DNA from: Mycobacterium neglectum
GTDB taxonomy: Bacteria; Actinomycetota; Actinomycetes; Mycobacteriales; Mycobacteriaceae
NCBI RefSeq assembly: GCF_002591975.1
Contig: NZ_NVQE01000005.1
Span: 62,001 to 126,000 of the forward strand
Length of the DNA stretch: 64,000 bases
Reading direction: 5' to 3'
The stretch's first letter is position 1; every line of letters begins with the position of its first letter. Under the pieces are notes generated by a model. The model had not been told where the DNA came from, did not search any database, and saw only the letters and a program-made list of their open reading frames with translations. Positions 39,707-60,670 of the stretch are shown in pieces. Position numbers and translations under genes: made by a program.

Positions 39707-39721
39707 TGGAAACTATGTCCG
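39707..39721. promoter_or_regulatory. IclR-type operator 1 (TGGAAACTATGTCCG)
   Basis: This 15-bp imperfect palindrome lies about 50-65 bp upstream of the transketolase pair 1 start codon. It matches the island-wide pattern TGGA(C/A)-N5-GTCC(A/G) and the length and half-sites of the classical IclR operator. Confidence 0.6.
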
Positions 39722-39778
39722 CTGGGTGGCGGAACGAATCTGAAAACGCGCTGTACATACGCCGAAAATGAGGGCCCG

Positions 39779-40189
39779 TCAGTCGCCGCCGACGAGATCG
39801 CGCAGCGACGCCAGCGGATCCTCAACCAATCGCCCGGCACGCGTATCCATCAGCCCAAGAACCATGTCGAGGTGAGCGGCCTCTCCAGCATCTGCACCGT
39901 AAATCCGCTGATTGCATCTGAAACTCTTTCCAGAACCGAATTGGTAAGTGGCCGTAGCGCGCACAGCTTCGCCGAAACAAAGAGGCTTGACGAACGAGAT
40001 ATCCATCGAGAGCACGACCACGACTCGGCCTGCGGCGACGAGCACCGCCGGACCGGCCCCCAGGTCGGCGAATGCGTTCACCCGGGCGGCTTCCGCATAG
40101 CGCAGGTAGGCGAGGTGGTGCACCTGGCCGTTGATGTCCAGGTCACTGAACTGCACTTCGCAGGCTCGCTCGTACGGCCGATCGAACAT
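39779..40189 (-). CDS. Hotdog-fold acyl-CoA thioesterase (4HBT/YbgC-like)
   Basis: The 136-residue protein begins MFDRPYERACEVQFSDLDINGQVHHLAYLRYAEAAR. The D-x-N-G-Q-V-H-H segment corresponds to the catalytic DxDxxGHxNN-type stretch of 4-hydroxybenzoyl-CoA thioesterases. It likely releases an acid from a CoA intermediate of the island pathway. AAGGAGGG lies right before the ATG at 40189. It stands between the two transketolase pairs and reads away from pair 2. Confidence 0.78.
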   Translation of the reverse strand: MFDRPYERACEVQFSDLDINGQVHHLAYLRYAEAARVNAFADLGAGPAVLVAAGRVVVVLSMDISFVKPLCFGEAVRATATYQFGSGKSFRCNQRIYGADAGEAAHLDMVLGLMDTRAGRLVEDPLASLRDLVGGD

Positions 40190-40266
40190 CCGCCCTCCTT
40201 CCACAGCACCTACCTGGTAGGACGCCCCAACCCTACTGCGCTTATCGCCGGCGTGTTACTGTTTAA

Positions 40267-40281
40267 TGGACAGTATGTCCA
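40267..40281. promoter_or_regulatory. IclR-type operator 2 (TGGACAGTATGTCCA)
   Basis: This near-perfect palindrome lies 46-60 bp upstream of transketolase pair 2 and about 80 bp upstream of the divergent thioesterase. A further half-site, TGGACAGTA, begins two bases after it, so two dimers could bind side by side. Confidence 0.65.
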
Positions 40282-40327
40282 CTGGACAGTAATTTGCCTC
40301 CCCCTCGTGGTATCAGAAGGAAGCAGG

Positions 40328-41173
40328 ATGGTCGCCACTCCACTCTCCGACGATGAAATCGCGCGCCTGGAGGACCGGGCGCAATTCATCAGGCTCGAGG
40401 TTGTACGCCTCGTCGACATCGCCAAGACCGGCCATTACACGTCGGCCTTCTCCTGCGCCGAGATCTTTGCGGCGCTCTATTACGACGTGATGCGCCTGCG
40501 GCACGGCCAGCCCGACTGGACCGATCGCGACCGACTGCTCCTCGGCAAGGGCCACGCCGCCGTCGGCCAGTACCCGATTCTCGCGGACTGGGGGTTTCTC
40601 GACGCCGACACTCTGGACGGCTACACCCGACTGGGCAATCCGCTTGGCGACCATCCCGATATGACTCGCGTGCCGGGTGTCGACTTCTCGTCGGGATCCC
40701 TCGGCCACAACCTGTCGGTCGGACTTGGCATCGCGCTCGGCGGCCGCCTCAACGGTCAGGACTTCCACACCTATGTGGTGCTCGGTGACGGCGAGCTCGA
40801 GGAGGGCCAGAACTGGGAGGCGGCGATGCTGGCGGCGCATCTCGGCGTCGACCGGCTCGTGGCGATAGTCGACCGCAACCAATACTCGCTCGACGGTCTC
40901 GTCGACGATATGAACGCCGTCGAGCCACTGGCCGACAAATGGCAGGCGTTCGGTTGGAATGTGCGGGCTGTCGACGGACATGACGTCGGAGCGCTGGCCT
41001 CGGTCCTGCGCGAGGTACGCGACCAACCGAACGGCACCCCGACGGTGATACTCGCGGCGACGGTGAAGGGCAAGGGCGTCAGGTTCATGGAAGAGAATTT
41101 CGGATGGCATCTGGGCTGGCTCGACAGGGAGGACCAAGCGGACGTGGTGGCAGAGCTGAAGGGGAGCCGATGA
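40328..41173 (+). CDS. Transketolase N-terminal subunit (pair 2)
   Basis: The 281-residue protein carries the same set of motifs as pair 1 (LLLGKGHAAVGQYPILADWG, GSLGHNLSVGLGIALGG, GDGELEEGQNWEAA...IVDRNQYSLDG). It differs in the loop DDMNAVEPLADKWQAFGWNV, so it is a diverged paralogue rather than a recent copy. GAAGGAAGCAGG precedes the ATG. It is followed by its C-terminal partner with ATGA overlap. An IclR-type palindrome sits upstream. Confidence 0.9.
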   Translation: MVATPLSDDEIARLEDRAQFIRLEVVRLVDIAKTGHYTSAFSCAEIFAALYYDVMRLRHGQPDWTDRDRLLLGKGHAAVGQYPILADWGFLDADTLDGYTRLGNPLGDHPDMTRVPGVDFSSGSLGHNLSVGLGIALGGRLNGQDFHTYVVLGDGELEEGQNWEAAMLAAHLGVDRLVAIVDRNQYSLDGLVDDMNAVEPLADKWQAFGWNVRAVDGHDVGALASVLREVRDQPNGTPTVILAATVKGKGVRFMEENFGWHLGWLDREDQADVVAELKGSR

Positions 41174-42195
41174 CCGGATTCACCGCCGACCACGCCATCG
41201 GTAGTCGCGGAAACTCTTGGCAAATCATGGATCTGCTCGACCAGGCGCCCGGTTTCGCCGCGCTCTCCCAGGCGCTGATCGAACTGACCGATGAGGGTGT
41301 TCCCATCGTCGTCGGAACCGCCGATCTCAAGTACTCCAACGGCTTGGTCCGCTATCAGGAGCGTCATCCAGACCGATTCATCCAGTTCGGTATCTCCGAA
41401 CAGAACATGGTGTCGGCGGCGGCAGGCATCGCCACCACCGGCAACCAGCCGTGGGTGGCGACCTTCGCGAGTTTCCTGGCGCTACTGTGTGCCGAACAGA
41501 TTCGGACCGACACTGCGTATACCCAGCTGCCGGTCCGCATGGTCGGCCACCATGCAGGTATCACGTTGGGCTTCTACGGCACGTCGCATCACGCCACCGA
41601 GGACCTGGCGATTATGCGCAGCATCGCGAACCTCACCGTCCTCGCGCCCGCCGATCCTGTTCAGCTGCATGCCCTGGTGAAGCTGACCCGCGACATTGCC
41701 GGACCGGTGTACCTGCGGATCGGCCGCGGCCGGGATCAGCAGATCTACGACCCTGCCGACCTCGCCGGGTTGCGCATCGGACAGGCAGTCCGGCATGGCC
41801 AGGATGCGGCGGTGACGGTCGTGGCGACCGGGTCGATGGTGCACCCGGCGATCGAAGCCCGTGCGGCACTTGCCGACGAGGGCATGGACGTCTGCGTTCT
41901 CGACATGCATACGATCAAGCCGCTCGACCGGGCGGCGATCGAGCGCGCCGCAGCGGTCTCCGAGCTCATCGTGACGGTGGAAGAGCACAACGTACTGGGT
42001 GGCCTTGGTGGTGCGGTCGCCGAGGTGATGGCCGAAAGCGGTTCGCGTGCCAGGCTTTTACGGCATGGCTTCCACGACGAGTACAGCCTGATCGGCCCTC
42101 CCTCGCACCTGTACCGCCACTACGACCTCGACGCCCACGGCATCGCCCATGTCGTCCGCCGTGCGTCGGTTCAGCCCGCCCGGTCGGGTGCATAG
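41170..42195 (+). CDS. Transketolase C-terminal subunit (pair 2)
   Basis: The 341-residue protein has GISEQNMVSAAAGIATTG with the pyrimidine-activating glutamate, VGHHAGITLGFYGTSHHATEDLAIMRS, and VTVEEHNVLGGLGGAVAEVMAE in the C-terminal domain. It completes a second transketolase with the gene upstream. The ATG overlaps that gene's stop. Its last 25 bp overlap the 3' end of the IclR gene on the other strand. A longer frame to 41104 is not needed. Confidence 0.88.
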   Translation: MTGFTADHAIGSRGNSWQIMDLLDQAPGFAALSQALIELTDEGVPIVVGTADLKYSNGLVRYQERHPDRFIQFGISEQNMVSAAAGIATTGNQPWVATFASFLALLCAEQIRTDTAYTQLPVRMVGHHAGITLGFYGTSHHATEDLAIMRSIANLTVLAPADPVQLHALVKLTRDIAGPVYLRIGRGRDQQIYDPADLAGLRIGQAVRHGQDAAVTVVATGSMVHPAIEARAALADEGMDVCVLDMHTIKPLDRAAIERAAAVSELIVTVEEHNVLGGLGGAVAEVMAESGSRARLLRHGFHDEYSLIGPPSHLYRHYDLDAHGIAHVVRRASVQPARSGA

Positions 42196-42947
42196 CCCAT
42201 GCTCGCAGAAATTTCCGCCGCGCCGGCGCGCACGAGATTCTTCAAATGCGTCTTCGACTGGCCGAGCAGGTCGCCCCGCAGCCCGCTGACCGATAGGGCC
42301 GCGATGACCTCACCTCGGAAGTCGAACACTGGCGCGCCGATGGCGGCGATGCCGACGGTGACGTCGCCGTCGCTCACCGTGACCCCGTCGGCCCTTTCCC
42401 GGCCAAGCACGTCGAAGAGCCGTTGACGGGTCGCGGGGGTCGACGGCGTCAAGCGCACCAGGGGGCCCGCCGAGACATACTTTTGCCACTCCTCCTGAGG
42501 GGCGAAGGCCAGCAGCGCCCGAGGAGCCGCACCCGCGTGCAGCGGCTGCGAGCCGCCAAGTTGCAGCGCGAGGGAGGCGACCCGCTCGCCCTCGATGCGC
42601 TCAACGCATACCGCGAGGTCACCGCGCCGCACCAGGAGGTAGACCGTCAGTCCCGTTTCGTCGCGGATCCGGTTCATCACCGGCAGCGCGCGTTCACGCT
42701 CGTCGAGGCCGGCCATCATGGCGGCGCCGAGTCGCAGAGCGTGTATCCCGAGGCGGTAGGTGCCGCGCGAGCCTGCCGACTCGACGAACTCCAATTTCTC
42801 GAGGCTGCCGAGCAACCGATACAGCGAGCTCCGCGGCTCGCCAGTCTTTTCGGACAGCTGTGCGATCGTCAGCTTGCGCTCCTGGCCGAGCAGGTCGAGT
42901 ACCTCGACCGCCTTCTCCACCAGTCGCAACCCCACTGGTTGAGCCAC
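42171..42947 (-). CDS. IclR-family transcriptional regulator of the island
   Basis: From the GTG at 42947 the protein has 258 residues. The winged HTH (KLTIAQLSEKTGEPRSSLYRLLGSLEKLEFVE) precedes the IclR effector domain with LTVYLLVRRGDLAVCVERIEG, LHAGAAPRALLAF and the C-terminal AAIGAPVFDFRGEVIAALSVSG that forms the ligand pocket. AGGGGG lies 6 nt before the GTG; longer forms from 42995 overlap the ADH gene. It is cotranscribed with that ADH and probably recognises the six TGGAC-N5-GTCC palindromes found across the island. Its 3' end overlaps the transketolase gene on the other strand by 25 bp. Confidence 0.88.
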   Translation of the reverse strand: MAQPVGLRLVEKAVEVLDLLGQERKLTIAQLSEKTGEPRSSLYRLLGSLEKLEFVESAGSRGTYRLGIHALRLGAAMMAGLDERERALPVMNRIRDETGLTVYLLVRRGDLAVCVERIEGERVASLALQLGGSQPLHAGAAPRALLAFAPQEEWQKYVSAGPLVRLTPSTPATRQRLFDVLGRERADGVTVSDGDVTVGIAAIGAPVFDFRGEVIAALSVSGLRGDLLGQSKTHLKNLVRAGAAEISASMGYAPDRAG

Positions 42948-42991
42948 TGCTTGCCCCCTGCTCTCGAAACCTTTTGGCATGAACCCTGGCA

Positions 42992-43987
42992 TCAAACGCC
43001 CGGGCCCACGACCACCTTCAGGGCATTGCGCCCGCGGACCGTGTCTACGGCCTTTGCATAATGAGACAACGGAACGGGTTCTTCCACAATCAACTCGCTC
43101 GTGATTGTCCCGCTCTCCAGAAGTCGCAGGGCGCCGGGGAAGGTGTGCCGCGTCGTCATACTCCCGACGATTGTCAGTTCCCGAGCGAAGACCTGGTAGG
43201 GCGACAGCGGAACGACGGCGTCGCCCGGCGCCACGCCGAGCTGGAGAAACGTCCCGCCTCGCTGCAGGCGCCCGAGGCCGTCCTCGATCGCCGTGGGCGC
43301 GCCCGATGCGTCGATGACGAGGTCCCAGTCATCCTCCTCACCGAGGTCCGAGGGACCGAACACCTTCGAGGCGCCGAGCTTCTGGGCGACCGCCCGACGG
43401 TCCGCGTCGAGGTCGACCGTGTCGACCGAGTGCGCTCCCAGGTAGCCCGCCACCTGCACCGCAAGCAGCCCGACGGGGCCCGCGCCGTATATGAGGACCC
43501 GTCGGCCCGACGTTCTGGGCACCATGTCGAACGCATGGAGCACGCATGCGAGCGGTTCGGCGAGCACGGCCGCGGTCGAGGACACCGAATCCGGGATGAC
43601 GTGGCAATTGCGTGCGGCCACCAAGACCCGATCGGCCGCTCCGCCGTTGAGAGTGATACCGACCGCGTTGCGGTGTTCGCAGAGGTTAGGCCGCCCCCGG
43701 CGACACAGCAGGCAAGTCATACACGGAACACCCGGGTCGACAACGACCCGCTCGCCCACTCGCGGCGACACGACCCCGGTGCCTCGGGCCACCACCGTGC
43801 CCGTCACCTCGTGGCCGGGCACGATCGGGAATCGCGCCGTGGCGAAGTCGCCGTCGAGCATGTGAATATCGGTCCCGCACACCCCGGTGAGCGCCACCTC
43901 GACGACGACGTCACCCGCGCCAGGCTCGGGATCCGGCAACTCGGCGATCTGCACCACCGTCGGCGCCTCGATGACGACAGCCCGCAT
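42992..43987 (-). CDS. Zinc-dependent alcohol (polyol-type) dehydrogenase, MDR family
   Basis: The 331-residue enzyme has catalytic zinc ligands in GVCGTDIHMLDGDF and PGHEVTGTV. The structural zinc cysteines appear in VPCMTCLLCRRGRPNLCEH, and the NAD-binding motif GAGPVGLLAVQVAG is followed by an aspartate (DLDADRR), suggesting NAD+. It resembles sorbitol/threonine-type MDRs acting on secondary alcohols. It is the first gene of the ADH-iclR unit, and an IclR-type palindrome is 32 bp upstream of its ATG. Confidence 0.85.
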   Translation of the reverse strand: MRAVVIEAPTVVQIAELPDPEPGAGDVVVEVALTGVCGTDIHMLDGDFATARFPIVPGHEVTGTVVARGTGVVSPRVGERVVVDPGVPCMTCLLCRRGRPNLCEHRNAVGITLNGGAADRVLVAARNCHVIPDSVSSTAAVLAEPLACVLHAFDMVPRTSGRRVLIYGAGPVGLLAVQVAGYLGAHSVDTVDLDADRRAVAQKLGASKVFGPSDLGEEDDWDLVIDASGAPTAIEDGLGRLQRGGTFLQLGVAPGDAVVPLSPYQVFARELTIVGSMTTRHTFPGALRLLESGTITSELIVEEPVPLSHYAKAVDTVRGRNALKVVVGPGV

Positions 43988-44018
43988 GTCCGACCTTCCA
44001 CTCTTAAATCTCGTTTAG

Positions 44019-44033
44019 CGGACTCTACGTCCG
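44019..44033. promoter_or_regulatory. IclR-type operator 3 (CGGACTCTACGTCCG)
   Basis: The palindrome has perfect 5-bp arms. It lies in the 103-bp gap upstream of the ADH-iclR unit, so the regulator would control its own expression. A further half-site TGGAAC follows five bases later. Confidence 0.65.
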
Positions 44034-44090
44034 TTCAATGGAACTATAGTGCAATAGGCTTGCGCGTTGGACATCTCTCGCACCACTCCT

Positions 44091-44990
44091 TCAGAACACC
44101 GCGACCGGATTAACCAGACACCCCGTCGCACCCGTGACGACCAGAGGGTTCACCGTCAGGAGAAAGTCGCGGCGACCTTCTTCGCGGCTCACTTTCACCA
44201 GAGGTTCCAGCAGCGGTGAGTCGATCGCGGCGACGCCGAACGCGTGGATCACCGAGTGGACTCCGAACGAAAGCCCATCCCGGTTGGGCGCCGTGTCGAA
44301 CATGTCCCACAACACCACCGCGATGTCGCGCTCACGGAAGAACCGCACGCATCCGGCGTCGAGACCGGGACGCCGCGTGGCGTCAGCCGACCACGGACCG
44401 TGGTCGTTCTCGTAGGCGCCGCGTCCGCAGAAGATTGCCACCGCGTCCCCGGGTCCCGGCTCGATACCTTGCGCGCGGCAGATCGCCTCGAGTTCGTCCC
44501 ATGTGACCGGATCATCCTGCTCGACGTAGCCCACGCCGCGATGAAGAGGGACGTCGATCAAGAATCCTCGCGTGTAGATGCCGTCGCGCCAGTGCTCGAT
44601 GGAACCCCACCGGGCACCCGAGAGCGAGATCTCTCGGTCCGGATCTCGGCCGCCCCACAGGCCGTCGGAGTCCCACACGTGGCAGAGCGCGTCGATATGT
44701 GTGGCGCTCTGGCCGTGATAGGCCATACCTTGAAAGTCCTTGGCGGCTCCCCCGCCCGCCGCGTGCCCGACGCGCTCCATGTACAGCATCGCCGGCGTGC
44801 GGTTGTTCGGCGCCGGTTGTGTCGGTACGGCCCGGGACAACGATACCGTTCGGCCCGATCGCACCAACCTGCTTGCCGCAACGCGCTTTTCAGCCGTGAT
44901 CAGGTTGACGGCGCCGCGCTGGTCGGAAGCCCCCCAGCGATGCCAATTTCGGTGGTCACGCAGATAAGTTCGGAGTTCGTCATCGGTCAT
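44091..44990 (-). CDS. Cyclase-family (kynurenine formamidase-like) metal hydrolase
   Basis: The 299-residue protein has the metal-binding block YHGQSATHIDALCHVW, equivalent to the HxGTHxD motif of the cyclase/kynurenine formamidase superfamily, here with SATHID. A late His in GVHSVIHAFGVAAIDS is also typical. These enzymes open lactones, amides or cyclic intermediates; the substrate is unknown. It is the last gene of a seven-gene minus-strand unit and its start overlaps the stop of the hydrolase gene (ATGA-like). Confidence 0.78.
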   Translation of the reverse strand: MTDDELRTYLRDHRNWHRWGASDQRGAVNLITAEKRVAASRLVRSGRTVSLSRAVPTQPAPNNRTPAMLYMERVGHAAGGGAAKDFQGMAYHGQSATHIDALCHVWDSDGLWGGRDPDREISLSGARWGSIEHWRDGIYTRGFLIDVPLHRGVGYVEQDDPVTWDELEAICRAQGIEPGPGDAVAIFCGRGAYENDHGPWSADATRRPGLDAGCVRFFRERDIAVVLWDMFDTAPNRDGLSFGVHSVIHAFGVAAIDSPLLEPLVKVSREEGRRDFLLTVNPLVVTGATGCLVNPVAVF

Positions 44991-45706
44991 GGACTCGACC
45001 GTTCGACCCAGTCCAGATGTTCTTGCACGTAACGCCGGAACTCATCTGGACGCTCCAACGGGGCCATGTGGGGCCCGTCCATCTCGACATAGCGGGAATT
45101 GGGTAGACGCTCGGCCAACGTGGCCAATTCCTTCGGCGGGGTGGAAACGTCGCGCGTTCCTGCCAAACAGGTTGTCGGCACGTCAATTTCACAAAGTCGA
45201 TCCAAAACGTCGTGATGCGCGATTGCCCGCCAGATATCCGCGAATGAGCTGGCGTCGATGCTGCGCAGACACCGACGGGCATAGGCCAACGCCTCGGGTT
45301 CCTCTGCACGGGAAAGAAACTCGGCGGTGAACCATCGCTCGAGAGTGGTCGCGACCATCGTCGCCGTTGGTTGGGCTTCGGTGGCATCCGCGCGCTCCAA
45401 CAGAACCGCTGTGGGCGTCTGCGCCGTGGTGCACGCCAGAACGAGTGACCGAACCAGGTCTGGGTGATCCAGCGCAAGGTGCTGGGCGACCATCCCGCCC
45501 ATGGACAACCCCACGACATCGACCGGCGAACGTACCCATCCGGCGACCTCGTCGGCCATGTCGCACAACGTCATACCCGGCCGCTGTCGCCGCCGACCAC
45601 CATGGCCGGGCAAGGTCGCTGTGATCGTGTGTTCGATCCCGAGAAGATCGCCGCATGCCGCGTCGAGGCCTGCCGCGTGGAGGACGAGGACGGGCGGCGC
45701 AGTCAT
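44987..45706 (-). CDS. Alpha/beta hydrolase (3-oxoadipate enol-lactonase-like), copy 1
   Basis: The 239-residue protein has the nucleophile elbow GLSMGGMVAQHLAL, the catalytic aspartate in GTRDVSTPP and histidine in DGPHMAPLERP. The fold is like PcaD or other small lactonases. The ATG at 45706 overlaps the stop of the EthD-like gene (ATGA); the longer frame to 45796 has no support. A second hydrolase with the same motifs is encoded near 60 kb. Confidence 0.82.
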   Translation of the reverse strand: MTAPPVLVLHAAGLDAACGDLLGIEHTITATLPGHGGRRRQRPGMTLCDMADEVAGWVRSPVDVVGLSMGGMVAQHLALDHPDLVRSLVLACTTAQTPTAVLLERADATEAQPTATMVATTLERWFTAEFLSRAEEPEALAYARRCLRSIDASSFADIWRAIAHHDVLDRLCEIDVPTTCLAGTRDVSTPPKELATLAERLPNSRYVEMDGPHMAPLERPDEFRRYVQEHLDWVERSSP

Positions 45707-46041
45707 TGGTCGGTGCTCTGCAGCTTCGCCGGCGTGATGTCCCGGTACACGTTGCGAAGATGGCTGGTGAAATGCGCGCTGACCCGGCGGGTCCACTCCG
45801 TCGGCGGGATGAGCCGCTGATAGGCAGGACCGTCCAGCACGTCCGGTGTCTCAAGTTCGTAGGTCGCGAGGTACTTGGGTCCACCCTCGAGCGCCTGAAA
45901 CCTCCTGCCGTTGAAGAAGCCCTCGCAGGCGAGCCGCTCCGGCAGATGCTCCTCCTCGTACCACCGGTTGAACTCTTCTTCGAACTCCGGCTCGATATCG
46001 ATCATCACAAACAGCAGTCCCGACCCGCGACTGATACCCAT
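45703..46041 (-). CDS. Small EthD-like (dimeric alpha/beta barrel) protein, copy 1
   Basis: The 112-residue protein contains GLLFVMIDIEPEFEEEFNRW followed by YEEEHLPERLACEGF, then GRRFQALEGGPKYLATYELE. This is the ferredoxin-like layout of EthD/NIPSNAP proteins, which act as isomerases, cyclases or stress-linked dimers. No catalytic role is assured. AAGGAGC 5 nt before the ATG at 46041 fixes the start; an upstream ATG at 46074 overlaps tctA. A second copy with the same WY..EHL.ER pattern is at about 50 kb. Confidence 0.75.
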   Translation of the reverse strand: MGISRGSGLLFVMIDIEPEFEEEFNRWYEEEHLPERLACEGFFNGRRFQALEGGPKYLATYELETPDVLDGPAYQRLIPPTEWTRRVSAHFTSHLRNVYRDITPAKLQSTDQ

Positions 46042-46070
46042 GTCAGCTCCTTTGCCTTGCGTTGGCGGAC

Positions 46071-47567
46071 TCATTCGACAAGCACCCCCGTGCGTACGCC
46101 CGTCTTGCGTCCAATGACGCTGGGAAGGATCAGGATTGCCGCTGCAATACCGAAAACGACCAGGGCAATCGGGCGGTGCAGAAAGATCGTCCAATCGCCA
46201 CTGCCCATCGACGAAGTCCGATTCAAATTGGCCTCCAGCATTGGTCCAAGGATCAGCCCAAGGATCAGGGGCGCGGCGGGAAAGCCGTACCGCGCCATGA
46301 AGAATCCGACGAACGCGGCAGCCACCGCGATCCAGGCACCCCACATGCGCTGCTCGATGGCATAGGCGCCCAGCAGGCTCGCCACAATGATGATCGGGTA
46401 CAGCAACGAGTACCGCAGTCGCAGGATCGACGCGAACATCGGCGCCATCGGTAGGTTCAGAATCAGCAGCAGGACGTTGCCGATGTAGAACGATGCAAGC
46501 AGACCCCATACCAGCGGCGCCTCCTTCTCCATCAGGAGCGGACCGGGTTGAATGCCGAACAGAATGAATGCACCCAACAGCACTGCGGTGGTACCCGAAC
46601 CAGGGATGCCCAGCGCGAGCGTCGGCACAAATGCCCCGTTGACCGCGGCATTGTTCGAGGCCTCCGGGCCAGCTACACCTTCGATGGCGCCCTTCCCAAA
46701 CTCGTTCTTGCGCTTCGAGATGCGCTTCTCCAAGTCGTAGGAGATGAACGACGCAATCGTCGCGCCGGACCCCGGCAAGATCCCGAGAAAGAAGCCCACG
46801 AATGTGCCGCGGGCGATCGGTCCGGCCGATCGACGCAGATCGTCGCGGGACAGCAGCAGATCGCGCAGTCGCGTTCGGATGGGTTCCCTGCGCTCCAGCC
46901 GGGCCTGTCCCATCACCTCCGATAACGCGAACACACCGATCACGACGGCGACGAAGCCAATGCCGCCGAGAAGTTCAATACTGCCGAACGTGAACCGTGG
47001 CACCCCTGACTGGGGGTCGAGCCCCACCGTCGACAGGGCAATACCCACAAAGCCCATCGCGAGGCCTTTGAACACCGCAGAACCCTGGGCAAAGCCGACG
47101 ACCCCCGCGAGGCCGAGCATCACCAGGGCGACCATCTCCGGAGGCCCGAACTTCACCGCGTACCTCGCGAAGACGGGGGCCGCCGTCATCAGCAGCACGA
47201 TGGTGATCGTGCCGGCAATGAAAGATCCGATGGCTGCGATCGCGAGCGCCTGACCGGCTCTCCCACGCCGGGCCATCTGGTAGCCGTCGAAGGTTGTCAC
47301 GACGGTCGACGCCTCACCCGGCGTGGACACCAGAATCGAACTGATCGTGCCGCCGTACTGAGTGCCGTAATAGAGACCCGCGAGCATGATCAGCGCGGTC
47401 ACTGGTTCCATTCCGAGCGTCAACGGCATCAACAGCGCGACACCGGTCGCAGAACCGAGCCCCGGTAACAGCCCGATGATGGTGCCGAGTACGACCCCGA
47501 TCAGGCAGAACAGCAGATTGTGCGGTGTGAGCGCGGTTTGAAATCCGGTGAGGACGTGATCCCACAT
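46071..47567 (-). CDS. tctA: Tripartite tricarboxylate transporter large permease TctA, system 1
   Basis: The 498-residue protein has about 11-12 membrane segments. The TTT signatures GLLPGLGSATGVALLMPLT near residues 32-50 and ILPGSGATIASFISYDLEKR in the second half carry the paired Pro-Gly substrate loops. It drives import of a carboxylate with the help of TctB and TctC. It lies in the order tctC-tctB-tctA (transcription order) downstream of a MaoC gene, with 4 bp to tctB. Confidence 0.92.
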   Translation of the reverse strand: MWDHVLTGFQTALTPHNLLFCLIGVVLGTIIGLLPGLGSATGVALLMPLTLGMEPVTALIMLAGLYYGTQYGGTISSILVSTPGEASTVVTTFDGYQMARRGRAGQALAIAAIGSFIAGTITIVLLMTAAPVFARYAVKFGPPEMVALVMLGLAGVVGFAQGSAVFKGLAMGFVGIALSTVGLDPQSGVPRFTFGSIELLGGIGFVAVVIGVFALSEVMGQARLERREPIRTRLRDLLLSRDDLRRSAGPIARGTFVGFFLGILPGSGATIASFISYDLEKRISKRKNEFGKGAIEGVAGPEASNNAAVNGAFVPTLALGIPGSGTTAVLLGAFILFGIQPGPLLMEKEAPLVWGLLASFYIGNVLLLILNLPMAPMFASILRLRYSLLYPIIIVASLLGAYAIEQRMWGAWIAVAAAFVGFFMARYGFPAAPLILGLILGPMLEANLNRTSSMGSGDWTIFLHRPIALVVFGIAAAILILPSVIGRKTGVRTGVLVE

Positions 47568-47571
47568 ACCT

Positions 47572-48153
47572 CTACATCACCCCCGCGAACACGCCCCATG
47601 GCAGATTTACCTCGAGGAAGTCGTCGAAAATGAACCACGACGCGACGAGCAGCAGCGCCGACACCGACACCGAGGCGACCCAGGATTCCCGCTCGACAAA
47701 CTTCATCATCACGAACCCACCAAGCACGAGTGCCGGGATGAGGCCGGCGTAGGGCGCGAGAAGTAGCGATCCGACCATTGCCGCGAAGATGAACCACGGT
47801 CTCAGTGGATGTTTCGCCTCGCGCTCCGCGAGGTCCGCTTCTTCGGTGCCGGCGACCACCGAGGGGTCGGGGGACGCGGGCACGTCGCTTCCCCCGACCC
47901 TGACCGGCATTCGCGCAGCCACCTCGGCTGTGTCGCCAATAGGGCCATCCTTGTTTTGCGACACCGACCGGAGGTCTGACACCACCAGGAGGACGCCGAA
48001 GACCACGATCCCGACTCCCATGACTGTCGGCATCAGTCCTGGTGCCATTCGTCCGTCGTCAGTCAGCCCGTAGGCCAGTCCACCTACTGTGAACCCCAGT
48101 CCCAGGAGGGTGACGATGCCTCCCGGGAGCCAGGCCCCGACGGACTTGCTCAT
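47572..48153 (-). CDS. tctB: Tripartite tricarboxylate transporter small subunit TctB, system 1
   Basis: The 193-residue protein has four hydrophobic helices (VTLLGLGFTVGGLAYGL, PTVMGVGIVVFGVLLVV, WFIFAAMVGSLLLAPYAG and ASVSVSALLLVASWFIF) split by an acidic Pro-rich cytosolic loop, as in TctB. The ATG overlaps the tctC stop (ATGA). Confidence 0.88.
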   Translation of the reverse strand: MSKSVGAWLPGGIVTLLGLGFTVGGLAYGLTDDGRMAPGLMPTVMGVGIVVFGVLLVVSDLRSVSQNKDGPIGDTAEVAARMPVRVGGSDVPASPDPSVVAGTEEADLAEREAKHPLRPWFIFAAMVGSLLLAPYAGLIPALVLGGFVMMKFVERESWVASVSVSALLLVASWFIFDDFLEVNLPWGVFAGVM

Positions 48154-49172: not shown

Positions 49173-49310
49173 CGCACACTCCTTGCTGTCGCACCTCTTT
49201 GGGCGAGTTGGCGGCGCACACGCGCGCCGTGACCGGTCCGGGGTTTCGGGCCGCTCGTCTGAGTGGGAACGGGCGCACCTGTCCTTCACCGACGGTGGCG
49301 CATTCGGTGC

Positions 49311-51792: not shown

Positions 51793-51820
51793 TGCGGCGG
51801 CAACCCGCTCCCTGCACCGC

Positions 51821-54167: not shown

Positions 54168-54171
54168 TTAC

Positions 54172-54957
54172 TCAGCGCCCCTTCCAAACTGGGGCGCGCT
54201 TCTCCAGGTATGCCCGGATTCCTTCCTGGCGGTCCTCGGTGAGGTAGGGGTTGGGCCCGACGTTGAGCCTCAGCGCAGACTGCACCGGCAACTCCCAGCC
54301 CTTGGTCATCATCTCCTTGTAGCGTCGCAGCGTGAGCGGCGCGTTCGCCACGATCTGGCGGACCAGCTTCTCCGCCTGCTCACTCAACGTGTCTGCCGGG
54401 ACGACGCGGTTATACAGGCCCCAGTTCAAGGCGTCCTCGGCACTGATGTTGTCGCCCGTGTAGAGCATCTCGAGCGCGACCGCACGCGGAATCAGCCGGG
54501 GCAGAACAACAGTGGCGAAGTTCGCCCCCATGCCGCGCTTCGCCTCCGGCATTCCCAGCACCGCGTGGTCGGCGGCGATCCGCAGATCGCACGCCAACGC
54601 GAGTTCACAGCCGCCGGCGACCGCGGGACCGTTGAGTACCGCGATGGTCGGCTTGTAGGTTTCCAGCACAGTCTCGTAGAGATTGCGCCGCGGCCCCATC
54701 ATGGGCACCGGGATCTGCTTGCCCGACTCCGCGATCTCGTCGAACTCCTTCAGGTCGGCACCGGCGCAGAACGCCTTGTCTCCCGCTCCGGTGAGCACGA
54801 CCGCCCAGACGTCCGAGTTTTCCTCCGCCGCGGCAAACGCGTCGACCAGCGCTGCCGTTACATTGAGGCTCAACGCATTTCGTCGCTCCGGCCGGTTGAT
54901 GGTGACGTACTGAACGTGCTCTCGTATCTCTACGAGAACTTCGTCTGACGCGCTCAT
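54172..54957 (-). CDS. Enoyl-CoA hydratase/isomerase (crotonase family)
   Basis: The 261-residue protein has ERRNALSLNVTAALVDAF, the oxyanion CAGADLKEF, and GPAVAGGCELALACDLRIAAD with the first active-site glutamate. The second catalytic region reads GMPEAKRGMGANFATVVLPRLI. Hydration of an enoyl-CoA is expected. AAAGGAG lies 6-7 nt before the ATG at 54957, which overlaps the FAH gene stop (ATGA). Confidence 0.9.
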   Translation of the reverse strand: MSASDEVLVEIREHVQYVTINRPERRNALSLNVTAALVDAFAAAEENSDVWAVVLTGAGDKAFCAGADLKEFDEIAESGKQIPVPMMGPRRNLYETVLETYKPTIAVLNGPAVAGGCELALACDLRIAADHAVLGMPEAKRGMGANFATVVLPRLIPRAVALEMLYTGDNISAEDALNWGLYNRVVPADTLSEQAEKLVRQIVANAPLTLRRYKEMMTKGWELPVQSALRLNVGPNPYLTEDRQEGIRAYLEKRAPVWKGR

Positions 54958-56120
54958 GTTCTGCTCCTTTCCGTCATCTTGACTAGGTTTCTGTTGCTGA
55001 GGTTCGCCATGAGTGCCCGGATTCCGGTCGACCACGCCGGCGCCAGCTCAGACGTCGTTACCGTGTTGGTCAACGTCCCCAATCGAGGGCAGCTGATCGT
55101 CACCCGATCACCGACGTGGTGGGTGAAACCTTCCCCGACGCGGTCGCGGTCGGCCACCGGCGCGAACATCGTGCCCGTGAACAGAACGAACCCGTCGGGA
55201 TACTGGTGATGGCGTCCGCACGTCCGCGCGAGCAGTTCCTCGGGATCGCGGCTGATCTCTGCCATCGAGCTCACTTCGGTCAATTCGAAACCGTCGCTGC
55301 CTTCAACGTGAAGCCTGACGTCGAGGCGGCGAACGTGGTCGAGTCCGAAGTCGCCGTCGAAGAGTCGGATGAATGGACCGATCGCGCAGGAGGCGTTGGC
55401 GTCCTTGGCCTGTGCCAGTAGAAGTGCACTGCGTCCCTCGAGATCGCGATGATTCACGTCGTTTCCGAGCGTCGCGCCGACCGCTGCGCCTCCCGAGTTC
55501 GCGACCAACACCACCTCGGGCTCGGGGTTGCTCCACGTCGAGCGCTCCAGCACGCCGACCTGAGCACCGTGGCCGACCGCCGACAACACCGGAGCCTTGG
55601 TGAAGATCTCCGGGTCGGGTCCGATCCCGACCTCCAGATACTGCGACCACAGTCCTTGCGCGACGAGCGCTTCTTTGAGTCGTTCGGCGGCCGGTGTACC
55701 CGGCGTGAGATCTCCGACGCGACCTGCGATGAGCACGGTCATCTCCTCGCGTACTGCCCGCCCCCGCTGGGGGTCGCCGCCGGCAGCTTCTTCGACCACG
55801 CGCTCCAGCAGGCTGCGCACGAACGTGACGCCCGCAGCCTTGATGACCTGGAGGTCGATCGGCGCCAGTAGGTGCACGAACGCCTCGGAGTCTCCGGACT
55901 GTTCGATGCACACGTCCTCCAGTGGCCACTCGCGCGACCCGCGAGCGCTCCGCACAACCTCGACGACGTCGCGGCGGTCCAGCAGATCGGCCATGGTGGG
56001 ACCATGCTCGGTGATGTCGACGACGACGTCGCCCCGCACCGCTACCAGACAGGGACCACCGACCTCGGGATCGTGCAGCCGGCCAACAGAAGTGCTGCGC
56101 CCCTTGGCAACACAGGTCAC
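54954..56120 (-). CDS. FAH-superfamily protein, XylX-like (2-keto-3-deoxy-pentonate dehydratase type)
   Basis: The 388-residue protein belongs to the long branch of the fumarylacetoacetate hydrolase superfamily. APIDLQVIKAAGVTFVRSLLERVVEE, EIFTKAPVLSAVGHGAQVG, NPEPEVVLVANS and LGNDVNHRDLEGRSALLL carry the Glu/Glu/Asp metal site. These blocks remind me of XylX and related dehydratases of 2-keto-3-deoxy sugar acids rather than of FAH itself. A dehydration or C-C cleavage of a keto acid is inferred. GTG start overlapping the LLM gene stop (GTGA); its stop overlaps the hydratase start. Confidence 0.78.
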   Translation of the reverse strand: MTCVAKGRSTSVGRLHDPEVGGPCLVAVRGDVVVDITEHGPTMADLLDRRDVVEVVRSARGSREWPLEDVCIEQSGDSEAFVHLLAPIDLQVIKAAGVTFVRSLLERVVEEAAGGDPQRGRAVREEMTVLIAGRVGDLTPGTPAAERLKEALVAQGLWSQYLEVGIGPDPEIFTKAPVLSAVGHGAQVGVLERSTWSNPEPEVVLVANSGGAAVGATLGNDVNHRDLEGRSALLLAQAKDANASCAIGPFIRLFDGDFGLDHVRRLDVRLHVEGSDGFELTEVSSMAEISRDPEELLARTCGRHHQYPDGFVLFTGTMFAPVADRDRVGEGFTHHVGDRVTISCPRLGTLTNTVTTSELAPAWSTGIRALMANLSNRNLVKMTERSRT

Positions 56121-57160
56121 GCCTTGGCCTCCTGGGGGTGATCGCCGCACGTGCGCGCCACCTCGCGCCAGAAGTCGTCACGCTCACCGGGACGCATGAA
56201 CTCGAAGAGGGCCACCCGGTCGAGCAGTCCGTCGTACCGGGTCCGCAGCGCCGGCCCGACATCGCTCGGGTCGGCCTCGATCGCGAAGGCGGCCAGCATC
56301 TCCTCCGAGACACAGGCTGACATGTCGTCCCACCGGCCACCGCGCGACAAGGTGTGCAACTTCTCGCCGACCGCGCCCCAGCCGTGGATGTCGAGCACCA
56401 AGCGATATGCCGGGGTCGACGCGTAGAACGCGATACGTGAACGGACGGCGTCTCGTTGGCGCTCGCGCTCGGCTGGGGTATCGCCGGTGATGACGAAGAC
56501 GCTGGTGGACAGTTCGACGTTCGAAGCATCTCGGCCGCCCGTCACTGCCCCATGCTGAATTTCGGGGACGACGACGGAACGCACGTAGGCGGGGCTGTGG
56601 AACGGGTGCACGTGCAGGCCGTCGCAGACTTCGCCCGCCAACCTGACGAGGCCCGGGCTCACGCCCGCGACCGAGACCGGGATAACCGGATGGTCGATGG
56701 GGCCGGGGTTGAACACGGGCGGTAACAGTGTGTGGCGGTAGTACCTGCCGTCGTACTTCAGCGCTTCGCCGTTCTGGAACGCACTCCAGATCGCACGCAG
56801 CGCCGCGATGTAGTCGCGCAGTCGAGCGACCGGCCGGTCCCACGGCATCGAAAATCGCCGCTCTACGTGCGGCTTGACCTGCGTGCCGAGTCCGAGCAGG
56901 AACCGCCCATCCGAGCGGCGCGCAAGATCCCACGCCAGTTGAGCGATCACCATGGGCGAGCGAGAGAACGCGATGGCCACCGCCGTACCGAGCTCGAGCC
57001 GGGAACTGTGGTCGGCGGCAACGGCCAACGGCAGGAAAGCATCGTGTTTGTTCTCACCGGTCCACAGACCCGCGACGCCGATCTCCTCGGCCCACCGGGT
57101 GGTGCTGGCGGTTGCGAGCGCGTCGGCCCCCTCCGAACTGAGCCGGGCATCGAACTTCAC
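56117..57160 (-). CDS. LLM-class (luciferase-like) flavin/F420-dependent oxidoreductase
   Basis: The 347-residue TIM barrel has ATTRWAEEIGVAGLWTGENKHD-type start, LELGTAVAIAFSRSPMVIAQLAWDL, and GRFLLGLGTQVKPHVERRFSMPWDRP, characteristic of the mycobacterial F420-dependent group (TIGR03617-like). It may reduce or oxygenate a pathway intermediate, with F420H2 or FMNH2 as cofactor. It lies between the ADH and FAH genes in one minus-strand unit. Confidence 0.82.
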   Translation of the reverse strand: MKFDARLSSEGADALATASTTRWAEEIGVAGLWTGENKHDAFLPLAVAADHSSRLELGTAVAIAFSRSPMVIAQLAWDLARRSDGRFLLGLGTQVKPHVERRFSMPWDRPVARLRDYIAALRAIWSAFQNGEALKYDGRYYRHTLLPPVFNPGPIDHPVIPVSVAGVSPGLVRLAGEVCDGLHVHPFHSPAYVRSVVVPEIQHGAVTGGRDASNVELSTSVFVITGDTPAERERQRDAVRSRIAFYASTPAYRLVLDIHGWGAVGEKLHTLSRGGRWDDMSACVSEEMLAAFAIEADPSDVGPALRTRYDGLLDRVALFEFMRPGERDDFWREVARTCGDHPQEAKA

Positions 57161-57185
57161 GCTTTCTCCTTTCTCGGATCGACTT

Positions 57186-58307
57186 CTATAGCGCCGGCGA
57201 GAGAACCGACTTGATGGAGACGCCCGCGCGCATGTCGGCGAGCGCCTGATTGACCTGTCCGAGCGGATATTCGGTCACCAAACGGGCCACGTCGAAGCGC
57301 TCGGTCAGTTGAGGCAGTGTCGCGATGTAGCGTGCGTAGTGTTCGGCCGAAAAAGCCCATGAGCCATGGACTTCCAGTTGCTTGCGCGTCACGATATGTG
57401 GATTGATCGGCGTGGTGCCGTGGTCGGTGTATTGACCGACGACGAGGTAGCGCCCACCGCGACGGGCCATGTCGATGCCCTCGGCAACTGCGCTCGGATG
57501 CCCTGTCGCCTCGACCACCAGATCGGCTCCCCGCCTCCCTGGGACGGCGTCCAACACAGCCTGCAACCTCGCGTCCGGGGTTCTGTACTCGTCGAGGTCG
57601 ACGGCGACGTCGCAGACGCCGAGTTGCTCGGCGACCTTGATCCGGCTCGATGGTCCACCGACGAGCACGACGATTCCCGCACCGGCCAACCGCGCGTACA
57701 TGGCCGCAGCCATACCGACCGGGCCGGCACCTTGGACCACCACTGACTCGCCGGTGCGTGGTTCGGCCTTCCCCAGCAGCCCGTGCACGATGGTCGGACC
57801 GGCACAACCCAGGGCGATCACATCCAAGCCGGAGACCGTTTCGGGCACACGGAAAATCGCCGTGCCGGGCTGAAGATAGATCCGTTCGGCCCATCCGCCG
57901 GACAGCTGGGGCCACACGTGCGCTGACTGGTTGATGCCGTAGATGCGACGGTGCTCGCAGAGTGAGTACTCGGTCAGTGCCACGCAGTAGTAGCAGTGGC
58001 CGCAGGGGATGCTCGACGCCCAGACGACCAAATCACCCTCGGACAGTGGCGCGCCTGTCGCGTCGACGTCGACGCCCGCGCCCAGTTCGCGTACGAACCC
58101 GACGGCCTCGTGTCCGAGGATCACCGGCAGCGGCACCGATAGTCGCCCGTCCTGGAGGTGGATGTCGGTACCACAGATTCCCGCATGCAAGACATCGACG
58201 ACAACCGCACCCTCTCGCGCGCTGGGTGGGTCGTACGTGCGGACCTCCACGTCGCTACCAATCATCCCGAGCACCGCTGCCCGCACCGTCGTCACGACCG
58301 TCTCCAT
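57186..58307 (-). CDS. Zinc-dependent alcohol dehydrogenase, MDR family, copy 2
   Basis: The 373-residue protein has the zinc ligands HAGICGTDIHLQDGRL and LGHEAVGFV, structural cysteines in SIPCGHCYYCVALTEYSLCEH, and GAGPVGMAAAMYARLAGAG for NAD(P). The extra loop with YGINQSAHVWPQLSGGWAERIYLQPG suggests a bulkier substrate than for the first ADH. It starts the unit ADH-LLM-FAH-hydratase-lyase. The upstream 228 bp contain a TACTAT-like box and one IclR-type palindrome. Confidence 0.84.
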   Translation of the reverse strand: METVVTTVRAAVLGMIGSDVEVRTYDPPSAREGAVVVDVLHAGICGTDIHLQDGRLSVPLPVILGHEAVGFVRELGAGVDVDATGAPLSEGDLVVWASSIPCGHCYYCVALTEYSLCEHRRIYGINQSAHVWPQLSGGWAERIYLQPGTAIFRVPETVSGLDVIALGCAGPTIVHGLLGKAEPRTGESVVVQGAGPVGMAAAMYARLAGAGIVVLVGGPSSRIKVAEQLGVCDVAVDLDEYRTPDARLQAVLDAVPGRRGADLVVEATGHPSAVAEGIDMARRGGRYLVVGQYTDHGTTPINPHIVTRKQLEVHGSWAFSAEHYARYIATLPQLTERFDVARLVTEYPLGQVNQALADMRAGVSIKSVLSPAL

Positions 58308-58432
58308 CCGTCCAAACCTCCCGAAGATTACCGCACAGCAGACAATTTGCCCACTGACAGATACTATGAGCAGGAGATGGGACGCACCCTAGGTGCGCAC
58401 CACGTAGATCGGTGGCGACCTCATCCGCCTGA

Positions 58433-58447
58433 TGGAACGTACGTCCA
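58433..58447. promoter_or_regulatory. IclR-type operator 5 (TGGAACGTACGTCCA)
   Basis: This 15-bp palindrome, with a fully symmetric GTAC core, lies in the divergent region between the ADH copy 2 and CoA-transferase copy 2 genes, 88 bp before the latter. Confidence 0.65.
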
Positions 58448-58535
58448 CAGAGATTCGACACGCGGCGCGGCCGGCCGGCGGACCCGCACTGAACCATGAC
58501 CACAGACCCCATGACGACAAACGGAGGTAGCGGCG

Positions 58536-59723
58536 ATGTCGGCCCTGCACGGATTGCGAGTTCTCGACGTGACCCAGGTATTGGCCGGGCCGTTCTGCGG
58601 TCAACTGCTCGCCGACATGGGTGCCGACGTCATCAAGGTCGAGCCTCCGGGAGCCGGCGATCAGTCCAGACGCGCGCTCGGGTTCTCGATGAAGGGCGAC
58701 GACACCGCGGCCTTTCTCGCGGTCAATCGCAACAAGCGCAGCCTGACGTTGAACCTCAAGACCGACGCCGGTCGCGACGCCTTCTACCGCCTCGTCCGAG
58801 GCAGCGACATCGTGATCGAGAATTTCCGTCCGGGAGTGGCCAAGCGGCTCGGCATCGACTACGAGGCATTGCGCGAGATACAGCCCCGCATCATCTGCGC
58901 GAGCATCTCCGGTTACGGCCAGAACGGCCCGTATTCGGCTCGGCCGGCGCACGATTTGATCGCCCAGGGGATGGCCGGGCTGATGAGCGTTACCGGTGAG
59001 CCGGGAGGCCCCCCGGCCAAGGTCGGGATTTCGATCGCCGACCTCTCGGCCGGACTGTTTTGTGCGTACGGTGTCGTCTGCGCGGTTGTGGCGCGCGAAC
59101 GCACCGGCCGCGGCCAATACGTCGACACCTCGATCTTCGAGGCGCCCGTGGCGATGGCCGTGTTCGAATCCACCGAGCTATGGGGCCTGGGCCGAGTACC
59201 CAAACCGCTGGGTTCGACCAACAGGACCGCGGCCCCCAATCAAGCACTGCGGGCCAAGGACGGATACATCAACGTATGCGCGGCCAATGAACGCCTGTGG
59301 CGAAAGTTGTGTGAGGCCCTCGGACGTCAAGATCTGCCCGCGGACCCGCGCTTCGCCGAGAACATGGATCGCATGGCCCATCAGAGTGAACTCGCCGAGG
59401 AATTGGAGCTCACGCTGGTCGAACGCGATGTCGCGGACTGGGTGGACCATCTGCTGGCCGCCGGGATCCCGGTGGGCCCGATCCTCGACTATGGCCAGGT
59501 CTTCTCCGATCCGCACACCGCGGCGCGAGGGATGGTCGTCGAGATGGACCATCCGGTGGAAGGCACCCTCAAGGGTCTGGGGATACCGGTCAAACTCAGC
59601 GACACTCCCGGTTCGGTCCGTCGCGCTGCACCGATCCTCGGCGCCGATACCGATGAAATCCTTTGTGAAATCGGATATTCCGCGGATGAAATCCGCAGGA
59701 TGCACCGGGAAGGCGCGGCCTGA
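58536..59723 (+). CDS. Class III CoA-transferase, copy 2
   Basis: The 395-residue protein has LHGLRVLDVTQVLAGPFCGQLLADMGADVIKVE, FLAVNRNKRSLTLNLKTDAG, and the expected catalytic aspartate in AHDLIAQGMAGLMSVTGE. It is clearly a different paralogue from copy 1. Two CoA-transferases suggest two acids are activated, or that one enzyme recycles CoA from the product. GGAGG lies 8 nt before the ATG. It converges on the alpha/beta hydrolase gene. Confidence 0.88.
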   Translation: MSALHGLRVLDVTQVLAGPFCGQLLADMGADVIKVEPPGAGDQSRRALGFSMKGDDTAAFLAVNRNKRSLTLNLKTDAGRDAFYRLVRGSDIVIENFRPGVAKRLGIDYEALREIQPRIICASISGYGQNGPYSARPAHDLIAQGMAGLMSVTGEPGGPPAKVGISIADLSAGLFCAYGVVCAVVARERTGRGQYVDTSIFEAPVAMAVFESTELWGLGRVPKPLGSTNRTAAPNQALRAKDGYINVCAANERLWRKLCEALGRQDLPADPRFAENMDRMAHQSELAEELELTLVERDVADWVDHLLAAGIPVGPILDYGQVFSDPHTAARGMVVEMDHPVEGTLKGLGIPVKLSDTPGSVRRAAPILGADTDEILCEIGYSADEIRRMHREGAA

Positions 59724-59730
59724 GATCCGC

Positions 59731-60522
59731 CTACGCTTCCCGGTCGAGGAAATCGAGGATCGTGCGGGCCATCAGTGCCGGTTGCTCGAGATAGCCCATG
59801 TGGGGGACATTATCGAGGATCTTCATCTCAGAATTCGGCAGTGCGGCAGCCATTTCCGCGGCGAAGTGCGGGGGTGTAGCGACGTCCGCGTCGCCGGTGA
59901 CGACGAGCGTGCGGGCGTAGACATCGTGCAGACTGTCGAGCACATTGTGTCCTGCGATGGCGTGAAAGGTCTTGGCCCAGGAATCGGGATCGTTGCTGAG
60001 CAACCGCTGGCGGGCGGTCCTGACGACCGCAAGGTTCATGCCGGTATCGGTGAACCACCGTGCAATCGCGGCCCGCGCCACCGGCTCCATGCCATGCGCC
60101 TCGGCGAGGTCTGCCCGCTCGAGGAACATCGAGCGTTCGGATTCTGATGTAGTGCAAGAGGTCCCAGACAACACCAATCGCATGACCATGTCCGGATACC
60201 GGATCGCCAGATGCTGGGCGACCAATCCGCCGAACGACTGCCCCACCACATGGGCGCGTTCCACACCCATGCTTCGCAGAACCTCCGCCACGTCGTCGGC
60301 TAGGTCTTCCAGGCTCCACGGACCCGGCGGCGACGGGGACTCCCCGTGTCCGCGAAGATCCACCCGCACCGCGGTGTAACGATGCTCGAGAGCCGTGGCC
60401 ACCGGCGCCCAGAACGTCCGGTCGAGGCCGACGGAGTGCAGTAACACCACGACCGGGCCGCCGGCCGGGCCCGTGCGGTCGTAAGCGAGCGGGACCGTCA
60501 CTCGGCCCGACTGACTCCTCAT
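59731..60522 (-). CDS. Alpha/beta hydrolase (enol-lactonase-like), copy 2
   Basis: The 263-residue protein has LHSVGLDRTFWAP, DLRGHGESP, the nucleophile elbow VVGQSFGGLVAQHLA, aspartate in TGDADVATPPHF and histidine in VPHMGYLEQP. It is a paralogue of the hydrolase at 45 kb. A lactone, ester or C-C bond hydrolase role is inferred. The upstream 209 bp shared with the acyl-CoA dehydrogenase contain an IclR-type palindrome. Confidence 0.82.
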   Translation of the reverse strand: MRSQSGRVTVPLAYDRTGPAGGPVVVLLHSVGLDRTFWAPVATALEHRYTAVRVDLRGHGESPSPPGPWSLEDLADDVAEVLRSMGVERAHVVGQSFGGLVAQHLAIRYPDMVMRLVLSGTSCTTSESERSMFLERADLAEAHGMEPVARAAIARWFTDTGMNLAVVRTARQRLLSNDPDSWAKTFHAIAGHNVLDSLHDVYARTLVVTGDADVATPPHFAAEMAAALPNSEMKILDNVPHMGYLEQPALMARTILDFLDREA

Positions 60523-60655
60523 TGAATTCCCTTCGTTTGGCCGAAGCGCGGCGCTCGCCAGGTGGACACCAATTCCGTTGATAGGGCTTCACCATGTGGT
60601 TCGGCCCAATGTCACCGAATCAAACCAAAGTGTAGACACACAAACGTCCGTGTGG

Positions 60656-60670
60656 TGGACTGAATGTCCA
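60656..60670. promoter_or_regulatory. IclR-type operator 6 (TGGACTGAATGTCCA)
   Basis: The palindrome has perfect 5-bp arms and lies 62 bp upstream of the acyl-CoA dehydrogenase and 134 bp from the divergent hydrolase. A half-site GTCCG lies just upstream. It is the clearest of the six sites. Confidence 0.7.

Follow-up and report, generated by a model that had tools for sequence, protein, structure and literature searches.

The window analysed here is a 64,000-nt (64-kb) stretch of Mycobacterium neglectum DNA. It contains, from position 37824 onward, a catabolic island (37824-72196, 34.4 kb) that extends past the end of the window, and all coordinates are given on the window scale. Palindromes of the form YGGAC-N5-GTCC stand in the intergenic gaps of this island. 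They are probably the operators of the IclR-family regulator encoded at 42171-42947 (-), which is predicted to control the whole island, its own alcohol dehydrogenase (ADH)-iclR operon included. That one regulon run by a single IclR covers the island had been proposed in a first-pass annotation made from the sequence alone. It stays the best reading, since the element also stands upstream of some orthologous iclR genes in other genera, is conserved in Mycolicibacterium agri and is absent from the other iclR loci examined in this genome.

With gene starts set by hand, a predicted operator is present in each of the eight intergenic gaps of at least 80 bp between 37824 and 72196. Seven of these operators exceed the shuffle maximum of a three-box position weight matrix (PWM), described below, and one (39707) scores less; the element is absent from both shorter gaps, 44 and 54 bp long (0/2). 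Intergenic DNA amounts to 1541 of the 34373 bp of the island. Most of the same island is present in M. agri, where the element is kept in most of these gaps, and eight pairs of sites were compared between the two genomes. The arms of the palindromes are alike at 62/64 bases and the spacers at 20/40, with 126/192 in the adjacent 12 bp on each side and 111/288 at 13-30 bp outside. These pairs include 58339 and the weak site at 60563; 49876 was left out. For 39707 and 58433, no M. agri counterpart was found above the cut-off.

Local clustering of the short motif

The first-pass annotation had described the pattern TGGA(C/A)-N5-GTCC at six places, 39707, 40267, 44019, 50421, 58433 and 60656. The pattern is exact at five of them, and the 15-mer at 44019, CGGACTCTACGTCCG, begins CGGAC, a single mismatch at the first base. 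All six are indeed intergenic once gene starts are placed by homology and domain position; the mechanical open reading frames (ORFs) over 39707, 40267 and 50421 start upstream of the likely starts (~40328 and ~50527). An exact TGGAM-N5-GTCC was also found at 5881, within a predicted gene. In the window there are 8 strand-wise matches (6 places) compared to 1.44 expected, and the largest of 100 shuffles gave 7.

Genome-wide, the short motif was near chance, with 84 matches compared to 71 for the reversed control. A plain genome-wide count was, therefore, rejected as stand-alone evidence, and what the scan did bear out is a local cluster in the island. The relaxed pattern YGGAM-N5-KTCCR occurs at 117 places in 6.21 Mb (control 88), which gives 0.65 expected in the 34.4-kb island. 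Of the places listed, 11 fall there, 9 of them intergenic and 2 in genes (41778 and 67972). Two intergenic sites, 66577 and 66733, are past the window, in the gap that separates a gene for a short-chain dehydrogenase from a TctC operon; these and 49876 had been missed in the list of six. The short-motif count was above its control in 11/11 genomes of relatives. The 15-mers could also be chance palindromes in GC-rich DNA, as the near-random genome-wide count would allow and as one of the six, 58433, does look. Given the cluster in the island, the agreement of arms over spacers in M. agri and the fact that a model whose sites were chosen without this genome still picks out five island gaps, this explanation is very improbable for the set.

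A regulon reaching elsewhere in the genome was considered and rejected. Of the 29 places with the pattern YGGAMWNNNWKTCCR, 8 belong to the island. Among the 21 others, 15 loci were inspected, and their matches lie inside predicted ORFs. One outside locus, L101, scored 17.9 with a PWM built from the island's own eight sites, equal to the weakest island sites.

Models from other genera

A 28-bp model was built from 9 sites for which the sole criterion was an exact GGAC-N5-GTCC upstream of iclR; they come from 7 of the 34 loci that do not belong to Mycobacterium or Mycolicibacterium. The seven best matches of this model over 88 kb are shared among five gaps of the island (40267 on both strands, 66733, 60656, 50421 and 58326/58339 on two strands), and 6 matches are above the largest of 10 shuffles (17.3). 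The three-box PWM was built from 13 sites from Rhodococcus, Amycolatopsis, Actinomadura, Micromonospora and a metagenome-assembled genome (MAG). Over 88 kb, ten of its matches score higher than the best of 8 shuffles (14.2). All ten are in gaps of the island, at 8 places: 50421, 40267 (both strands), 60656, 58326/58339, 66733, 44006, 49863 and 66577, with 39707 next at 12.5. With a plain 15-bp model (14 sites), five island sites came first (66577, 40267, 66733, 60656 and 50421), followed by coding matches mixed with 39707 (rank 11) and 44019 (rank 17).

A further profile, R1, holds 27 sites, 18 from other species, 9 from M. agri and none from this genome. With 150 of 1348 candidates scored over the 6.2-Mb genome, 10 matches reached E ≤ 10, and the island holds 8 of these, at 7 places. 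The two matches outside, C44:3568 and C32:72282, are both inside mechanical ORFs, that on C32 near the ORF start. In whole genomes at E ≤ 1, R1 found 9 matches in M. agri, all on the island contig with training sites among them, 2 in R. koreensis and 3 in Actinomadura roseirufa, the last five all at the iclR gap.

The element beside orthologous iclR genes

The first-pass annotation had suggested comparing the motif near orthologous iclR genes, and 79 iclR-ortholog loci were fetched together with as much as 10 kb of flanking sequence on either side. In the 350 bp upstream of 24 orthologs of at least 50% identity, M. agri being left out, every 4-mer palindrome with a gap of 0-14 was counted. GGAC-N5-GTCC was present in 6/24 compared to 0.5 expected, and ranked first by count and third by ratio to background among the 15 pairs listed. 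In R. koreensis, R. wratislaviensis, M. wolinskyi, Amycolatopsis, Actinomadura madurae and two MAGs, the PWM of the island sites also found matches before iclR, and many of them sit between iclR and a divergent transketolase N gene. Altogether, some loci of Rhodococcus, Amycolatopsis, Actinomadura, Mycolicibacterium, Curtobacterium and Paenarthrobacter have the element upstream of their orthologous iclR.

In the 79 ortholog loci and 11 control loci, R1 gave 61 matches, none of them in the control loci. For the 67 loci that had not been used for R1, 11 of 27 matches (10 loci) were within -260 to +30 of iclR, where 0.43 would be expected if they were uniformly placed. Over all 79 loci and by identity, a match in this interval was seen in 9/25 loci at 50% or more, 9/35 at 44-49% and 1/19 below. 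Eleven further iclR loci of this genome were examined (3.1 kb each, out of 30 other IclR-type helix-turn-helix matches), and with the island PWM they reached at most 14.6, compared to 17.6-27.0 for the eight island sites from which that PWM was built.

The operators could be real but read by another regulator, with iclR merely one target. The association of IclR with the operator rests on position and phylogeny; the genome holds 31 IclR-type helix-turn-helix matches, and a ScfRs-domain gene at 35833 and a TetR gene at 30633 are nearby. However, the element stands beside the iclR ortholog in genera whose further neighbors do not match the island, it has the published half-site arrangement of the IclR family, and the 11 other iclR loci examined are without it. 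Control by a different protein is improbable.

Several results weigh against assigning these sites to the island IclR. A match within -260 to +30 of iclR was found in only 19/79 ortholog loci; one of the 19, L065 (+4), seems to be coding, within the frame of iclR. Curtobacterium accounts for 4 of the 10 held-out loci that have a near match, and L042 is close to the training locus L041. Four Streptomyces loci (L026, L027, L028 and L035) had no R1 match before iclR. In a second tier of 15 loci at 44-49% identity, GGAC-N5-GTCC was not among the 15 best pairs. The recognition-helix peptide was one of the patterns used to fetch the ortholog loci. The training sites of the 15-bp, three-box and R1 models were picked using this genome's own PWM and, thus, these models are not fully independent. 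The 28-bp exact-palindrome model removes this dependence because its sites were chosen without this genome, but it places 44019 (13.3), 49876 (10.6), 66577 (10.0) and 39707 (9.6) within shuffle range. R1 includes M. agri sites, and its E-values are rough, with 150 of 1348 candidates scored. In Jiangella, R1 gave 5 matches at E ≤ 1, 3 on the island contig and 2 on other contigs.

Some further observations were made in the ortholog loci. On the Jiangella island contig (L023), two more R1 matches outside the training set (G149:C134:52451 and 60363) suggest that the regulon may be large there. A Microbacteriaceae MAG (L030, 1647-15788) holds a partly syntenic relative of the island, with IclR, ADH, TktN/C, MFS, TctABC, CMD and 2-hydroxyacid dehydrogenase, and has an operator-like site before TctC. 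In L060, L061, L051, L073, L076 and L078, an operator-like site is located ~796-860 bp after the iclR start, just downstream of iclR and before the next gene.

Architecture of the predicted operator

The element is longer than the 15-mer. Its consensus, YGGAC-N5-GTCC-RYnnARY-GRnA, has three half-sites. A GGAC-like box, with at least 3 of 4 bases matching, was found at 7 nt in 8/32 flanks and at 8 nt in 6/32 flanks of the island sites (this genome and M. agri), and at 8 nt in 16/46 and at 7 nt in 4/46 flanks of the ortholog sites. Other offsets up to 25 nt gave at most 5 and at most 8, respectively. This third box, 7-8 nt away from the palindrome, bears out the extra half-sites that had been noticed beside several of the six 15-mers. 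Judged by eye, the sites at 40267, 60656 and M. agri 81829 and the loci of Jiangella and Curtobacterium have a fourth box on the left.

The first-pass annotation had likened the site to the E. coli IclR operator, given as TGGAAATNATTTCCA in Table 1 of PMC8222616. The two share the odd length of 15 bp and the outer half-sites TGGA/TCCA. In the island, however, the fifth base is C (or A), the center is not constrained, and the conserved element includes a third box at a distance of 7-8 nt, which makes the operator a longer three- or four-box element and not a plain 15-mer. Both the island and ortholog sites have the group 2 arrangement (TGRA...TYCA inverted, 15-16 bp) in the form YGGAC-N5-GTCCR, 15 bp; the published inner letters of that group (AACA/TGTT) are not kept.

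Three-box operators of the IclR family are described for PcaU, PobR and HmgR and in 32 orthologous groups, and an alternative pairing of the boxes has been proposed for them (Suvorova and Gelfand 2021, PMC8222616). As they are described there, one pair of boxes is group 2 and the next pair is group 1, GTYC-RY-N3-RY-GRA. The island element shares this design, its additional alternating box forming GTYC-RY-N3-RY-GRA, and so belongs to the three-box class. It differs from those operators in its GGAC half-sites, in the fourth box on the opposite side at some sites and in its split-transketolase and carboxylate-transporter targets. The IclR family, the three-box operator class and local regulons of such a kind are already known. 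Among the titles and abstracts listed in a literature search, which did not extend to the supplement of PMC8222616 (181 groups), no paper on this regulator, operator or island was recognized.

The tandem spacing of IclR sites, two palindromes 18-22 nt from center to center, was not found in the island or ortholog loci. Palindromes are paired 34-37 bp apart before iclR in eight ortholog loci (L036, L037, L039, L041, L042, L043, L046 and L047), outside the 18-22 nt reported for tandem sites, and 45 bp apart in L044. In the island, the paired palindromes are 93 and 156 bp apart.

The IclR-family regulator

The protein encoded at 42171-42947 (-), the predicted regulator of the island, has 258 amino acids from its likely start. 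It belongs to the IclR family by its N-terminal IclR helix-turn-helix (PF09339, 49 bits) and C-terminal IclR effector domain (PF01614, 127.6 bits), scored on the 274-amino-acid ORF, and its recognition helix region reads GEPRSSLYRLLGSLE. In the 11 other iclR loci examined, the aligned region differs from GEPRSSLYR in every case (11/11). The regulator is under the cut-off of all 8 NCBIfam models listed. It shares family and domain order with BhcR, PcaR/PcaU/PobR, KdgR, AllR and IclR, but its scores of 84-148 bits reach none of the equivalog or subfamily cut-offs (275-406). Thus, it is not one of the named equivalogs (BhcR, KdgR, AllR and IclR), the best being BhcR at 147.7 bits compared to a cut-off of 350. 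It is 92% identical to an M. agri protein and, as M. agri also has most of the island, the organism is probably a Mycolicibacterium. The regulator is rare in the genus, with a match at 1e-40 or better in 6 of 148 genomes searched, the source genome included, and the matches in the other five are 37-50% identical.

Sites and genes of the island

The island genes encode two pairs of split transketolases, a thioesterase, IclR, zinc dehydrogenases, PF04199 cyclases, three tripartite (TctABC) transporters, MaoC, two class III CoA-transferases, HMGL-like, ECH, FAH and F420-type LLM proteins and an acyl-CoA dehydrogenase (ACAD). From the family names, our guess is that the pathway handles a CoA-linked acid and a sugar-like or keto compound.

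The first split transketolase is at 37824-39655 (-), with tktC1 at 37824-38765 (PF02779/PF02780) and tktN1 at 38762-39655 (PF00456). The site before tktN1-tktC1 (39694-39721, -; 15-mer 39707-39721) is a weak, possible operator. It scored 12.5 with the three-box PWM, whose shuffle maximum is 14.2, and 9.6 and 7.8 in the 28-bp model, within shuffle range. No match to tktN1/tktC1 was found in the M. agri stretch. The next gap separates a 4HBT-type thioesterase gene (39779-40189, -; PF13279) from the second split transketolase (40328-42195, +), which consists of tktN2 (40328-41173, PF00456) and tktC2 (41104-42195, PF02779/PF02780). The predicted operator of this gap (40254-40294; 15-mer 40267-40281) has third boxes on both sides. 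It scored 28.6 and 26.3 on the two strands with the three-box PWM, 30.4 and 21.0 with the 28-bp model and 16.7 and 17.0 bits with R1, and is conserved in M. agri.

A zinc alcohol dehydrogenase gene (42992-43987, -; PF08240/PF00107) likely forms an operon with iclR. The predicted operator before it (44006-44046; 15-mer 44019-44033) scored 17.8 and 12.4 with the three-box PWM, 13.3 and 8.4 with the 28-bp model, within shuffle range, and 12.8 bits with R1. Compared to M. agri, its arms agree at 8/8 bases and its spacer at 0/5. A predicted target operon at 44091-49871 (-) encodes a cyclase, a hydrolase, a small DUF4286-like protein, TctA1, TctB1, TctC1 and MaoC. Before maoC-tctC1B1A1 is a weaker addition, a possible operator at 49863-49890 (-; 49876), with 16.9 in the three-box PWM, 10.6 in the 28-bp model, within shuffle range, and 7.1 bits (E 0.7) with R1; a similar M. 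agri site at C195:64908 has a three-box score of 11.2. Two small proteins of this region, encoded at 49956-50348 (130 amino acids, no Pfam family) and 45703-46080 (125 amino acids, DUF4286), are matched by relatives at the corresponding places in M. agri.

Between the 49956-50348 gene (-) and the gene for class III CoA-transferase 1, which is followed by an MFS transporter (50527-53008, +), is the predicted operator at 50421-50448 (+). It is the best R1 match in the genome search (20.3 bits, E 0.003, with 150 of 1348 candidates scored), scored 30.3 with the three-box PWM and 21.2 with the 28-bp model and is conserved in M. agri. A predicted operon at 53013-58307 (-), for HMGL-like, ECH, FAH, F420-type LLM and ADH2 proteins, diverges from the gene for class III CoA-transferase 2 (58536-59723, +). 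The predicted operator of this gap is at 58326-58366 (58339), with 25.3 and 16.5 in the three-box PWM, 19.4 and 16.4 in the 28-bp model and 15.1 bits with R1; its M. agri counterpart has the same position and arms alike at 8/8 bases. It takes the place of the 15-mer listed earlier for the same gap, 58433-58447 (+), TGGAACGTACGTCCA, which is probably not an operator. That 15-mer ranks 146 in the 28-bp model and is outside the top 20 and 25 of the 15-bp and three-box models.

The last predicted operator in the window, at 60656-60683 (+), is between a hydrolase gene (-) and an operon for ACAD, TctC2 and TctB2 (60732-63532, +), which runs past the window with TctA2 and a cyclase. It scored 28.2 with the three-box PWM, 22.9 with the 28-bp model and 17.9 bits with R1, and is conserved in M. 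agri. A weak, possible secondary site is located 93 bp from it at 60563-60577 (+), with a three-box score of 6.3 and rank 71 in the 28-bp model; its M. agri counterpart is TGGACACGGAGTCCA. At its other end, the island is adjoined by an isocitrate lyase gene (33391-34677) and by the ScfRs-domain regulator gene (35833-37248), whose product we take to be RamB-like. Before these two genes there was no match of the 13-site three-box PWM or the exact-palindrome 28-bp model.

Proposed mechanism

Binding, repression and an effector are inferred here. An IclR dimer would occupy the central palindrome in the group 2 arrangement. The third half-site, and the fourth where there is one, point outward at a distance of 7-8 nt (group 1) and could hold a second dimer or allow an alternative pairing. 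Without effector, IclR would keep the promoters blocked, to be released by a metabolite of the pathway; it could conceivably activate some promoters. Repression is our guess because the palindrome centers are ~12-100 bp before the start codons, and ~28 bp before iclR at the nearer Rhodococcus/Actinomadura ortholog site.

IclR may instead be an activator or dual regulator at the island promoters. The family is described as including both kinds (PMC8222616), and some centers are 70-100 bp upstream of starts (50421, 60656 and 66733). The other centers, 12-55 bp before starts (49876, 44019, 58339, 66577 and 40267), and the nearer ortholog sites before iclR do not favor this role, which we consider unlikely, although appreciably less so than control by a different regulator.

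Implications

Beyond control of this island by its own IclR, a broader reading is possible, and we offer it tentatively. There may be an actinobacterial IclR regulog with a 37-41-bp four-box operator on which dimers can pair in two alternative ways. The cassette of iclR, operator and transketolase might then be an old portable switch that recruits unlike catabolic modules by seeding operators at each new promoter. The modules would be the tripartite-transporter and beta-oxidation-like genes here and other gene sets in Rhodococcus, Amycolatopsis and Actinomadura.

The predicted regulon ties about 35 island genes without a known substrate to one regulator and, therefore, they can be studied as one pathway. 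The element provides a sequence model for seeking the regulon in other actinobacteria. Its conserved three- or four-box operators would also be a natural set for testing the idea of alternative dimerization for IclR proteins.

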